Source: a virus. Taken from it: a DNA stretch of 29,757 nucleotides. The stretch's first letter is position 1; every line of letters starts with the position of its first letter. The stretch is taken from IMG/VR virus record IMGVR_UViG_3300010430_000348, positions 1-29,757 of that record; one strand, given 5' to 3'. The position numbers were made by a program, and so were the translations under genes. Positions 7,400-25,938 of the stretch are shown here, piece by piece. Below the pieces are notes generated by a model. It searched no databases. It was given only the letters and a program-made list of their open reading frames with translations, and was not told where the DNA came from.

Positions 7400-7540
7400 A
7401 TGGCAGCGCTTATTTTCTGGATCGGTAGGGCGCTGCGCGTCGTCGGAATTGATCTCAACCTTGTGTTTGATCCAGTTCACGTTTTTCGTTTAAAATCGCA
7501 GAGAAAAGCTTGTCCTGAACGTCGCCGGGGAGCTGACTGA
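7400..7540 (+). CDS. Possible 46-aa peptide antisense to the repressor 3' end
   Basis: ATG 7400 is preceded by GTGAGG at five to six bases. The peptide starts MAALIFWIGRALRVVGI, weakly amphipathic, and ends basic (KSQRKACPERRRGAD). The last 86 bases overlap the 3' end of the repressor gene on the other strand. Its opening resembles the preceding small gene (aromatic/hydrophobic then ARAV/ALRV). The call rests only on ribosome site and start character. Confidence 0.25.
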   Translation: MAALIFWIGRALRVVGIDLNLVFDPVHVFRLKSQRKACPERRRGAD

Positions 7541-7787
7541 AGTCACCGCACATCAGAAAGTTTATGTCGATTCTGTGCTCCCGATACAGGTAGATCATCG
7601 TCGATCTGCCTGGGTATGAGGCTGCATTTTCTGCGTTGCTAATAGCCGCTTTGGAAATGCCGATTGCTTTTCCGAGTTCGGTCTGGCCCATAGCGACAGC
7701 ATTTCTGGCAGCGCGCAACCTAAGTGCCGCCGCCTCTTTGCTAAAGTCGCCTGTCCGCGCAAGGGCGGATTTTTCCTCGTACGTCAT
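7455..7787 (-). CDS. CI-like lysogeny repressor, short HTH form (110 aa)
   Basis: Residues about 23-68 are an XRE-type HTH: ALRLRAARNAVAMGQTELG followed by KAIGISKAAISNAENAAS. The C-terminal part (YLYREHRIDINFLMCGD...LFSAILNEKRE) is a short helical tail, and there is no S24/LexA-type protease domain. The frame is open to 7853, but that start would fall inside an operator; ATG 7787 is preferred and, with TACTGT ending five bases before it, would give a leaderless message like lambda cI. It is transcribed divergently from the Cro-like gene across two operators, the arrangement of a phage lysogeny switch. Confidence 0.75.
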   Translation of the reverse strand: MTYEEKSALARTGDFSKEAAALRLRAARNAVAMGQTELGKAIGISKAAISNAENAASYPGRSTMIYLYREHRIDINFLMCGDFSQLPGDVQDKLFSAILNEKRELDQTQG

Positions 7788-7806
7788 GTTCACAGTATTG
7801 GCATGG

Positions 7807-7823
7807 GTACATGAAATGTGAAC
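7807..7823. promoter_or_regulatory. Operator OR2: GTACA-N7-TGAAC
   Basis: GTACATGAAATGTGAAC has the same arms and 7-base spacer as OL2 (5022-5038). It lies 20 bp upstream of the preferred repressor start, over the likely -35 region of the repressor promoter, so it is placed for autoregulation. Confidence 0.6.
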
Positions 7824-7841
7824 GGACATTGATTGTTGGTG

Positions 7842-7870
7842 TTGTGCGTACATAATAAATGTACTAGCCT
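7842..7870 (+). promoter_or_regulatory. Rightward early promoter (PR-like), probably giving a leaderless message
   Basis: TTGTGC and TAGCCT flank the 17-bp operator. The hexamers are weak, but a start about seven bases beyond the -10 would fall on the ATG at 7877, which has no ribosome binding site. A leaderless first gene would explain this. Confidence 0.45.
7848..7864. promoter_or_regulatory. Operator OR1: perfect GTACAT-N5-ATGTAC palindrome
   Basis: GTACATAATAAATGTAC is a perfect inverted repeat centred 41 bp from OR2. It fills a 17-base gap between TTGTGC (7842-7847) and TAGCCT (7865-7870), the candidate -35 and -10 of the rightward promoter. This repeats the geometry seen at the leftward promoter. 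Confidence 0.7.
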
Positions 7871-7876
7871 CCCGTC

Positions 7877-8098
7877 ATGATGACAGTATCCGATATATGC
7901 GACGCCATTGGCCGCAAAGAGCTGATGATCCGTTTAGACGTATCCAAATCGGCGGTAAGCAATTCCGTGGCAGACGGAGTGTTTCCATCAAGCTGGTACG
8001 GCGTGATTAAAACCATGTGCGCTGATCGCGGGCTGGAATGCCCGCAGAGCCTTTTCAATTTTAGAAAGTCAGCGACGGAAACCACAGACGCCGCCTAA
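7877..8098 (+). CDS. Cro-like DNA-binding protein (73 aa)
   Basis: A 73-aa protein immediately downstream of the rightward operator. Residues 4-45 (VSDICDAIGRKELMIRLDV, SKSAVSNSVADGVFPSSWY) form a Cro/YdaS-like helix-turn-helix, in which an 'I-G-R-K..L...L-x-V-S-K-S-A-V-S' arrangement is typical. ATG 7877 and 7880 are both possible; no ribosome site precedes them, consistent with leaderless translation. It is the first gene of the rightward operon and divergent from the repressor, so a Cro role (repressing the repressor promoter) is the natural reading. Confidence 0.75.
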   Translation: MMTVSDICDAIGRKELMIRLDVSKSAVSNSVADGVFPSSWYGVIKTMCADRGLECPQSLFNFRKSATETTDAA

Positions 8099-23415: not shown

Positions 23416-23759
23416 CACTGTGGGCCGCGCAAGTCGGTTTTCTGTGTTCGGTCGTGAAGGGCGAAAAAGAATCCAGATTGGCGCGGATCAGATCGGCCGG
23501 GGATAAGCCGGATCTCCCCGATCTGATTTTCGCCGATCACCTCTGCGAGGCCATGTTCAAGCTGAGCCCCACGCGCAGCAACGGCTTTAGTGCGGAGCCG
23601 ACAGGTTGGGCTGAGATCGCGCCCTTCGCTCAGGCAACGGGCCGGGTGAAGAATAGCTGGGAGGCCGAAACATTGTTCGAAATGTGCCGCTCGTATCACG
23701 AGGAAAATCAAGCCGGGAAAAGCCCGTTCCGGATCTCGCCGATGGAAAGAGAGGATTAG
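23394..23759 (+). CDS. Tail assembly chaperone, T-like extension made by -1 frameshift (121 aa beyond the slip)
   Basis: The frame has no ATG and no ribosome site near its first candidate start (GTG 23454). In the -1 frame from 23394 it reads GKARDALTLWAAQVGFLCSV and on through VKGEKESRLARIRSAGDK to a stop at 23757-23759. The upstream frame ends only 19 bases past the slip. Continuity of protein-like sequence from the heptamer onward supports translation as the GT fusion, as in lambda G/GT. The T part holds the tape-measure-contacting region in known systems. Confidence 0.7.
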   Translation, partial: GKARDALTLWAAQVGFLCSVVKGEKESRLARIRSAGDKPDLPDLIFADHLCEAMFKLSPTRSNGFSAEPTGWAEIAPFAQATGRVKNSWEAETLFEMCRSYHEENQAGKSPFRISPMERED

Positions 23760-24160
23760 GGAGAGGAGCGACCTGTGATTCTCAGATGGTCACCTTCGCG
23801 CACCGTAACGAATGGAAATTCAGGGCTGTCATAGTCGGCTGCCTCAAGTATCTCACGTAACTCTTCGGTGTACTGCGGCAGCACCGAGGCCATGGCTTCG
23901 ACAACATTTAACGCAAACTGACGACGCCCAACCGCGTTGGCCTTTTTGTAGAAAAACGCCATCGAGGCTAAATCATTCAGGAGAGCATCCAATACATCTT
24001 CCTCGGGGTACGCAACTTCAAGCGTGGCCACGATCTCAGCGTTCATTGAGCGGTTGTTCGCTTTGGCGGCGTTCGCGACGCGCTCCTTAAGGTCCGCAGG
24101 CATTCTCACGCCAAACGGGGCAATGTCTCTGGTGAGGCTCGAGGAATCATCTGATTTCAT
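23756..24160 (-). CDS. Mnt-like repressor with Arc/MetJ ribbon-helix-helix domain (134 aa)
   Basis: Residues about 12-50 (DIAPFGVRMPADLKERVANA, AKANNRSMNAEIVATL) are a ribbon-helix-helix of the Arc/Mnt family: the strand 'PFGVRMP' contacts DNA, and 'NNRSMNAEI' is the family signature. P22 Mnt is 83 aa; this protein has an additional C-terminal region of about 80 residues (AFFYKKANAVGRRQF..., VLPQYTEELREILEAADYD), probably for oligomerisation. The ATG at 24160 is preferred; it lies 4 bases from an operator copy and has no ribosome site, so may be leaderless. It is divergent from the Arc-like gene. Confidence 0.85.
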   Translation of the reverse strand: MKSDDSSSLTRDIAPFGVRMPADLKERVANAAKANNRSMNAEIVATLEVAYPEEDVLDALLNDLASMAFFYKKANAVGRRQFALNVVEAMASVLPQYTEELREILEAADYDSPEFPFVTVREGDHLRITGRSSP

Positions 24161-24164
24161 TGTG

Positions 24165-24229
24165 ACACGATGTAGCGAAAAAAACCTTGCGTGCAATGGT
24201 TACACGATGTAGTGTGACTACACGATGTA
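24165..24229. promoter_or_regulatory. Three operator copies (ACACGATGTA) between the Mnt-like and Arc-like genes
   Basis: The decamer ACACGATGTA occurs at 24165-24174, 24202-24211 and 24220-24229. Within the last two, TACA-CGA-TGTA is a short palindrome, as expected for ribbon-helix-helix dimers. The last two are 18 bp apart and lie over a plausible rightward promoter (TTGCGT 24187-24192, 17-base spacer, TAGTGT 24210-24215). The first lies just upstream of the Mnt-like start and over its likely -10. Together they look like the shared control site of two divergent promoters. Confidence 0.7.
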
Positions 24230-24244
24230 ACAAATGGAGGCAAA

Positions 24245-24400
24245 ATGAGTAAGCGAAATATTCCCCCGTTCGGACTTCGGATGCCGAAGGAACTGCATGA
24301 ATGGGTCAAAGAGAAAGCAAAAGAGCAGGGGCGTTCGATGAACAACTTCCTGGTTCATCTGCTTCAGGCGCAAAAAACAGAGGACACCGCACAAAAGTAA
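24245..24400 (+). CDS. Arc-like repressor (51 aa)
   Basis: A complete ribbon-helix-helix protein, two residues shorter than P22 Arc (53 aa). The sequence IPPFGLRMPKELHEWVKEKA with KEQGRSMNNFLVHLL matches the Arc pattern (strand F-x-L-R-x-P, helix A, 'GRS-x-N' turn, helix B) position by position. ATG 24245 has GGAGG at the right distance. It would repress the promoter of its own operon, including the antirepressor downstream, as Arc does in P22. Confidence 0.85.
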   Translation: MSKRNIPPFGLRMPKELHEWVKEKAKEQGRSMNNFLVHLLQAQKTEDTAQK

Positions 24401-24431
24401 AGCCGCCGGGACGGCAATCCCGACGGCTTTT
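24401..24431 (+). terminator. Terminator/attenuator between Arc-like and antirepressor genes
   Basis: AGCCGCCGGGA (24401-24411) pairs with TCCCGACGGCT (24418-24428), one mismatch, six-base loop, then TTTTAATAAA. It starts immediately after the Arc-like stop codon and precedes the antirepressor by 40 bp. It would keep antirepressor levels low relative to Arc. In P22 the equivalent gap encodes the sar antisense RNA control; here an attenuator may play that part. Confidence 0.75.
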
Positions 24432-24470
24432 AATAAACCCACCAAGTCCAATTGGTAGAAAGGTTCGATC

Positions 24471-25196
24471 ATGAACATACCTATTTCAACGCCCGATTTC
24501 AATGGGCAAGTCATCACCATGTCGTCGCGCGAGATCGCGGAGCTGCTGGAGAAGCGGCATGACGACGTAAAACGTAGTATTCTGCGCCTCGTTGATCGTG
24601 GCGTGATTGTCCAACCGCCAATGGCGGATGAACAAGATACAGACAAGATGGGCCGAAAGCGCACAACATCTGTGTACCGTTTGCAAAAACGCGACACCTA
24701 TGTGGTCGTGGCTCAACTGTCGCCGGAGTTCACCGCTCGCTTGGTGGATCGCTGGCAGGAACTGGAAGCGCAGGAGGCAAAGCCCGCCATGCTTTCCGGC
24801 CCTCAGCTGATGGCGGCGGCCCTGATCGAGGCGGACGCGACGATGAAAGCGCAGGCGGTTCAGATCGAATCCATGCGCGAGGATGTGGAGGCCCTGGACC
24901 GGATTGCCGCTGCGGATGGAAGCCTGACCATCACCGAGGTCGCCAAGAACCTAGGCATTCGCCCAAAGGACGCCTTTTCATGGCTCAGCCAGAACGGCTG
25001 GACCTACAAGCGCCCCGGTGGTTCGGCATGGCTGGGTTATCAGTCGAAAGCCAACGCTGGCTTGTTGGAACACAAAACGACCACGATCCTGCGGGCCGAT
25101 GGCTCGGAAAAAGTGACCGAGCAGGTGCGGGTGACGGCCAAAGGGCTGACCTACTTGGCCAAGCTGATCCCCGGTGTCGCAAAGGAAGTGGAATGA
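24471..25196 (+). CDS. Rha-type antirepressor with KilAC domain (241 aa)
   Basis: N-terminal Rha domain, about residues 15-100: VITMSSREIAELLEKRHDDV, KRSILRLVDRG, and YRLQKRDTYVVVAQLSPEF are close to the family consensus. The C-terminal half is the antirepressor KilAC/ANT domain: DGSLTITEVAKNLGIRPKDA, FSWLSQNGWTYKRPGG, then VRVTAKGLTYLAKLI. Such proteins bind or displace a phage repressor, or regulate lytic genes. It follows the Arc-like gene as ant follows arc in P22. ATG 24471 has AAGG upstream. Its target is not known; the short CI-like repressor is a candidate. Confidence 0.9.
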   Translation: MNIPISTPDFNGQVITMSSREIAELLEKRHDDVKRSILRLVDRGVIVQPPMADEQDTDKMGRKRTTSVYRLQKRDTYVVVAQLSPEFTARLVDRWQELEAQEAKPAMLSGPQLMAAALIEADATMKAQAVQIESMREDVEALDRIAAADGSLTITEVAKNLGIRPKDAFSWLSQNGWTYKRPGGSAWLGYQSKANAGLLEHKTTTILRADGSEKVTEQVRVTAKGLTYLAKLIPGVAKEVE

Positions 25197-25605: not shown

Positions 25606-25938
25606 CTAGTTGTGCGAAGCAATCAAGCCCAGCACCAGAAAATCCGGTGGGGGCGGTAGATCGCAACCACCGGCAACCATCATCTCCAAGATCATGCTTT
25701 GCCGCAGCAGAATATTGGTAAGGGCAGCCTGCATCGCCGCGCCTTCAACTCCATTCGATGCAGATCTTACGGAACTCGTTTCGCCTCGACTTGATGCTAA
25801 TTCTGCGCGGCTTCTCCGGTCAAAAAAAACGGCCGCATTGTCGAACCTGCTGAACTCAGCACGAAGTCTTTCGCAGTCCATCGCATGGGCTGGCTTTGTC
25901 GCCCCAAAAACCAAAAGTACAGCAAAGAATTTCCACAT
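25606..25938 (-). CDS. Small secreted/periplasmic protein on the strand opposite the late genes (110 aa)
   Basis: ATG 25938 has GAGG at seven bases. Residues 1-19 (MWKFFAVLLVFGATKPAHA) are a good Sec signal peptide with cleavage after A-H-A, leaving a mature protein starting MDCERLRAEFS. The mature part has two cysteines (one near its N-terminus and one in GGCDLPPPP), possibly a disulfide. It is the only gene in the tail module, besides the Mnt-like one, transcribed against the late operon, so it is likely expressed in the lysogen from its own promoter. Function unknown. Confidence 0.65.
   Translation of the reverse strand: MWKFFAVLLVFGATKPAHAMDCERLRAEFSRFDNAAVFFDRRSRAELASSRGETSSVRSASNGVEGAAMQAALTNILLRQSMILEMMVAGGCDLPPPPDFLVLGLIASHN

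Follow-up and report, generated by a model that had tools for sequence, protein, structure and literature searches.

A probable immI-type antirepressor control cassette among the tail genes of a temperate alphaproteobacterial siphophage

The immI region of phage P22, in which Mnt maintains repression, Arc shuts the switch off after infection and sar damps translation, has so far been the textbook single case of two RHH repressors combined with such an RNA. The DNA analysed here, a 29,757-base IMG/VR record (the window), was described in a first-pass annotation as carrying a P22-type immI module inside its tail genes, which raises the questions of whether this locus is built like immI and whether such an arrangement recurs elsewhere. 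We consider it quite probable that the locus is an immI-type antirepressor control cassette, full mechanism included, carried as a moron by a temperate alphaproteobacterial siphophage. The gene order and orientation claimed for it agree with the immI annotation in NC_002371: a minus-strand Mnt-like gene diverges from an arc-antirepressor operon, both repressors are RHH proteins, operator-like repeats lie in the mnt-arc gap, and in both phages the region is a moron among structural genes (Table 1). The immI reading is stronger than the first-pass annotation knew, because a probable counterpart of the sar antisense RNA, the fourth immI element, lies at the same place.

Table 1. Observed and predicted features of the cassette, in window coordinates.
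Feature	Position	Strand	Basis
Mnt-like RHH repressor gene, 134 aa	23756..24160	-	Pfam Arc E 1.4e-10; PDB AmrZ/Mnt; same divergent position in 72 modules
Operator copy 1 (predicted), GACACGATGTA, adjoins mnt start codon	24164..24174	.	Repeat analysis; equivalent in most modules
Predicted arc-ant promoter, TTGCGT-N17-TAGTGT	24187..24215	+	Consensus match alone, weak
Operator copy 2 (predicted), TACACGATGTA	24201..24211	.	Overlaps spacer/-10 of predicted arc-ant promoter; Oarc position of P22
Operator copy 3 (predicted), TACACGATGTA	24219..24229	.	Over predicted start site; Omnt position of P22
Arc-like RHH repressor gene, 51 aa	24245..24400	+	Pfam Arc family E 7.8e-10; PDB relatives
Predicted sar-like antisense RNA, about 77 nt, spans ant Shine-Dalgarno region	24391..24467	-	Promoter, hairpin, covariance model
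Hairpin over arc stop codon, predicted antisense terminator	24399..24430	-	Followed by TTTACTTTTG on minus strand
Antirepressor gene, 241 aa, Rha N-terminal and KilAC (ANT) C-terminal domains	24471..25196	+	Pfam, PHROG
Predicted antisense (Psar-like) promoter, TTGAAA-N17-TATGTT, inside ant 5' end	24474..24502	-	Consensus match; position as P22 Psar
Small protein gene, twin-arginine-type signal, overlaps ant stop codon	25196..25558	+	Relatives beside antirepressor/arc in about ten other modules

The Mnt-like protein, whose ORF starts with the ATG at 24160, and the Arc-like protein both exceed the Pfam PF03869 gathering threshold (41.3 and 38.9 bits versus 20.4). Among solved structures, the relatives of the Mnt-like protein are AmrZ and then P22 Mnt, the C-terminal part of which is shorter, and those of the Arc-like protein are P22 Arc (the engineered pArc first) and Mnt. 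The further statement that the Arc-like protein matches P22 Arc almost residue class by residue class went too far, as 16 of 34 residues are identical to Arc, yet 17 of 38 are identical to Mnt. P22 Mnt and Arc could not be assigned as orthologues to the two classes, since the class profiles separate them poorly (P22 Mnt scored 48.7 bits with the Mnt-like and 47.8 bits with the Arc-like profile). The assignment of the third gene as a Rha/KilAC antirepressor was confirmed, both domains lying well above threshold (Phage_pRha, PF09669, 46.7 versus 29.9 bits, E 4.9e-12; ANT/KilAC, PF03374, 109.3 versus 25.3 bits, E 1.6e-31). Pfam gave pRha and ANT alone for this protein, with P22_AR_N and P22_AR_C absent; judged from its sequence, it is not homologous to P22 Ant, which belongs to the P22_AR family. 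When the cassette was compared with known phages at the DNA level, fragments of ant alone were matched.

The late region of the window is the orderly one of a siphophage, with genes for terminase, portal, head, tail terminator, major tail protein, distal tail and tape measure. The portal protein is closest to that of Sinorhizobium phage phiLM21 (53%), and relatives of the antirepressor were found in Rhodobacteraceae, both of which support the earlier assignment to an alphaproteobacterial siphophage; no integrase was found in the window, and the contig may be a fragment. A chaperone-type gene (Phage_TAC_18, 23454-23759) directly precedes the cassette, and five genes occupying 2.25 kb lie between the small tail gene and the tape-measure gene. 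In the phages with the nearest backbones, RHph_X3_2 and 438212, no gene lies at this position (the small tail and tape-measure genes are separated by 8 bases in the former and overlap in the latter), whereas phiLM21 has one extra gene near the chaperone/tape-measure junction. Because the genes abut in the two syntenic phages with the nearest backbones, the cassette is an insertion. Its placement in the structural half of the genome, as claimed, is correct, but the exact site is unlike that in P22, where immI lies between genes 16 and 9.

The nearest annotated relative of the cassette was found in Paracoccus phage vB_PyeM_Pyei1 (MK291445), in which p53-p55 encode a divergent Arc-family pair and a Rha/KilAC protein, as in the window, and which carries them at the same junction, between tail assembly chaperone E and the tape measure. 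Pyei1 differs in having a contractile tail and other RHH contact residues, and its annotation names neither an immunity region nor an antisense RNA. The P22-like 'ant morons' of epsilon34, HK620, CUS-3 and others are likewise a variable late-operon insert, often carrying an antirepressor with mnt/arc, although these phages are P22-like podophages with an Ant of the P22 type; the available portion of PMC2629481 describes no general module or operator code. More generally, ant morons of the P22 group and Arc genes were found in the literature and a general module was not, which is weak evidence of absence given the thin coverage of subscription papers.

The first-pass annotation listed three copies of ACACGATGTA between the two RHH genes. 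They lie at 24165, 24202 and 24220, and the window contains no further exact copy; allowing one mismatch, four matches were obtained in the 29.8 kb, with 0.58 expected. Read as an 11-mer, the site is the palindrome TACA-CGA-TGTA, and the only two occurrences of the 11-mer palindrome TACANNNTGTA in the whole window are in the cassette, with 0.01 expected. Copies 2 and 3 form a near-perfect 33-bp inverted repeat (24199-24231). These repeated palindromes are placed like Oarc and Omnt, and we predict that they are operators; the predicted arc-ant promoter that they overlap is a weak consensus match, and its position relative to copies 2 and 3 is the same in many other modules. Many modules have copy 2 across the -10 region and copy 3 some 12 bp downstream of it; therefore, the positions of P22 Oarc and Omnt hold the same sequence, in contrast to P22 itself, in which the two operators are distinct. 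The mnt promoter could not be placed relative to copy 1, as the best minus-strand match was within 10 bp of copy 1 in only 33% of modules. In addition, no Shine-Dalgarno sequence is visible ahead of the Mnt-like gene and copy 1 sits 4-14 nt before its ATG (24160-24199), for which reason the mnt transcript may be leaderless.

To place the locus among its relatives, loci from viral contigs and genomes were gathered by searches with the antirepressor and the Mnt-like protein, and an RHH-domain profile identified 118 divergent pairs among them, 72 of which were non-redundant after the removal of similar mnt-arc gaps. In 61 of the 72 modules, the gap contained a motif of its own (11-mers with up to two mismatches), specific to that module, in three or more copies, compared with 87 of 1,440 dinucleotide shuffles (6%), and the copies are typically spaced by about 35 and 20 bp (37 and 18 in the window). 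Across modules, antirepressor families (ANT, pRha, Bro-N, AntA and P22_AR) predominate downstream: of 51 genes located after arc, KilAC (18), Rha (18) and Bro-N (7) were the commonest, and the others included P22_AR (1-2 of 51). The modules neighbour tape-measure genes or integrases. Of ten long downstream ORFs, five were clearly tape measures, one encoded a different tail protein and one a head protease, and three had no match at 1e-10. Because the downstream antirepressor families and the neighbourhoods vary, the control head therefore travels independently of both antirepressor family and location. Together with the antisense element considered below, these results indicate that phages of alphaproteobacteria and of other bacteria commonly carry the whole immI arrangement, including the antisense RNA, joined to unrelated antirepressors.

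In P22 Arc, the bases are contacted by the beta-strand residues Q9, N11 and R13. The window proteins carry the same triad, P-G-R, at these positions (beta-strands APFGVRMP in the Mnt-like and PPFGLRMP in the Arc-like protein), unlike P22 Arc and Mnt. Within modules, matches between the two RHH proteins at the equivalents of Arc Q9, N11, R13 and N34 greatly exceeded those in shuffled pairs (z 7.8, 8.0, 7.5 and 7.0), whereas the interleaved core columns 7 and 9 gave z values of 0.8 and 0.95 in the same permutation test, so that overall relatedness does not explain the matching of the contacts; some other RHH columns showed a moderate excess (z about 3-4). Triads were identical in 20 of 63 pairs, compared with 3.8 expected and a permutation maximum of 11. 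Since the contact positions match and the core positions do not, the two repressors within a module probably recognise a common set of operators, in contrast to Arc and Mnt of P22. The triad of the Mnt-like protein also predicts the motif when the rest of the domain is controlled for (partial Mantel r 0.24, p 0.001): PGR is mostly associated with TACA-N3-TGTA, K[VI]R often with GGCA-N3-TGCC, RQR with GCGACTTGC, QKR and QRR with CCACGGTGG, and QTR with ATTACGGTAAT. A universal code in which PGR specifies TACA-N3-TGTA was rejected, as a CTATTAGTAG-type motif is present in L151, L171 and L164, whose Mnt-like proteins have PYGLR.

We also assessed the arc-ant junction for a counterpart of sar, which in P22 is 70 nt long, with a promoter inside ant and a terminator that overlaps the arc stop (NC_002371 annotation). 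In the window, a predicted antisense promoter inside ant and a hairpin over the arc stop are spaced as in P22, the -10 box lying at +73 from the arc stop, compared with +74 for true P22 sar measured with the same script. In the hairpin, 8 of 12 pairs show two-sided changes. The best antisense promoter exceeded the best sense promoter in 62 of 71 modules (Wilcoxon p 1.9e-10), and, of the 37 modules whose hairpin is strong, 29 had a -10 box at +60 to +90, versus 6 of 34 others (Fisher p 3e-7), p-values that are indicative because the hairpin threshold and position window were set after the first cases had been inspected and the modules share ancestry. The position of the antisense promoter was also kept where the next gene encodes a different protein (L048, L057 and L016), which points to constraint at the DNA level.

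A covariance model (R1) built without the window detected the element at 24380-24467 with an E value of 5.7e-12, a score that is partly due to closely homologous training members, L161 among them; the next unrelated match had an E value of 0.38. Among 149 genomes (Paracoccus homiensis family), all four R1 hits with E<1e-6 were beside RHH pairs, and two of these were new (E<1e-11) and beside divergent pairs; three weak hits were not beside RHH pairs. The Rfam sar model RF00262 did not match the window locus (L039), while the P22 control scored 97.8 bits. RF00236 (ctRNA_pGA1) matched 24389-24461 over its full length at 30.1 bits, below the gathering score of 45 and thus without membership, and P22 sar likewise matches it weakly (24.3 bits). 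Taken together, promoter, hairpin and geometry suggest that the window carries a probable counterpart of P22 sar, and we infer that it is transcribed on the minus strand from 24467 to about 24391.

Considering these features together, we proposed how the cassette would operate. In a lysogen, the Mnt-like protein would occupy the three TACA-N3-TGTA sites and shut the arc-ant promoter (copy 2 at the -10 box, copy 3 at +1), and copy 1 would probably mediate feedback of the Mnt-like protein on its own promoter. When a naive cell is infected, the arc-ant promoter would fire, and the Rha/KilAC antirepressor would be produced and would block the primary repressor of its own or of a resident phage. 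The co-transcribed Arc-like protein, acting at the same sites, would soon turn the promoter off again, and the antisense RNA, running from inside ant to the arc-stop hairpin, would mask the ant Shine-Dalgarno sequence and damp translation, including that of late read-through transcripts. By analogy with P22, the antirepressor would be kept silent by the cassette in the lysogen and be made in a brief burst upon infection.

Several other explanations were weighed against this scheme. The two RHH proteins might share no operators, the Arc-like protein using a site of its own that was not seen or acting elsewhere and the repeats serving the Mnt-like protein alone. In line with this, the P22 operators are distinct, the triads clearly differ in a minority of modules (L043, KMR/PGR; L046, QTR/PGR; L183, RQR/PGR), and where they differ the motif tracks the Mnt-like triad. 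However, the window proteins have the same triad on nearly the same beta-strand, contact columns match across modules far beyond permutation while core columns do not, and no second repeated motif of such kind was found in the mnt-arc gap; we therefore regard separate operators as unlikely, though worth keeping in mind, and infer that both proteins bind the repeats. It is rather doubtful that the locus is an immI-like two-repressor switch in which the hairpin is a feature of the mRNA, a read-through attenuator or stability element, with no antisense RNA. The hairpin is visible on the plus strand as well (R1, 24399-24432, E 5.3e-5), the last arc codons could be conserved at the protein level, and the antisense U-tract TTTACTTTTG is imperfect and poorer in many relatives (TTCATTCGTTTC). 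Against this, most relatives lack plus-strand U-tracts, the antisense promoter is the better one in most modules, its TTG-containing sequence with a 17-bp spacer keeps a fixed place despite different downstream proteins, and the proven P22 sar has the same geometry.

That the cluster is instead a toxin-antitoxin or anti-phage defence module seems very improbable, even though RHH proteins often serve as antitoxins, phage regulators have domains in common with toxin-antitoxin and phage-defence networks (for example, PMC10440598) and the cluster occupies a moron site with small accessory genes. Two divergent RHH genes and an antirepressor stand in the exact immI order, which in P22 is a proven antirepressor switch, and the genes downstream are mainly of antirepressor families and not toxins. 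Equally improbable is that the cassette has decayed and is silent: degraded immI regions are frequent in P22-like phages (PMC8022706 and PMC2629481), and the sense promoter is weak, but every ORF is intact, arc and ant are each preceded by a Shine-Dalgarno sequence, the operators are intact and palindromic, and another viral contig (L001) carries a 100% identical antirepressor together with an RHH pair.

Beyond the immI-type reading of this single cassette, we lean, with some reserve, towards viewing immI as a widespread, portable and 'addressed' control head that consists of an operator triplet, an RHH pair co-reprogrammed at three contact residues and an antisense RNA, and that is joined to varied antirepressors. 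If this is true, the operator address of each copy would set which co-resident prophages silence one another's antirepressor. The roughly 70 natural repressor pairs with cognate operators make RHH specificity directly testable; the series bears on the question of operator sharing between two repressors of a single switch and offers a handle on cross-immunity between co-resident prophages.

A primary immunity candidate lies at 7455-8098, with an HTH-only repressor (7455-7788, ATG at 7788), a divergent small ORF (7877-8098) and, in the gap, GTACAT-N5-ATGTAC and GTTCACA...TGTGAAC palindromes. The 'lambda-like' immunity region of the first-pass annotation is supported as far as this divergent XRE-HTH gene and small downstream ORF, and not beyond them. 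Pfam found no peptidase domain in the candidate repressor, which therefore could not be cleaved lambda-style, and inactivation by the antirepressor is a plausible route. A LexA-type box (GTTC-N7-GTTC), a possible link to SOS, was absent near the cassette, and the two in the whole window are near chance.

Variants of the module were also observed. In L014 (3191-3501), a Mnt-like gene (P-G-R, with TTACAGTCTGTAA-type repeats) stands opposite an HTH gene of another kind that is not Arc-like, and a Rha/KilAC antirepressor follows the HTH gene, giving a one-repressor form. In L041, the first gene after the arc hairpin, unrelated to antirepressors, begins with a leader, M-x-M-P...(D/E)FNG, that antirepressors also have; this common leader suggests that downstream genes are exchanged at such a junction.

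Two further genes separate the antirepressor gene from the tape-measure gene. The minus-strand ORF 25606-25938, which has a signal-like segment at its N terminus and matches no Pfam or PHROG family above threshold, is possibly a second moron gene. Relatives of the small protein with the twin-arginine-type signal lie between arc and ant or directly after ant in other modules (L040, 5720-6079; L048, 4558-4938; L057, 4639-5004; L162, 4593-4952; L172, 1838-2284; also L150, L251, L050 and L161). By its position next to immI it resembles sieA of P22, and our guess from this analogy is that it is a secreted exclusion protein.
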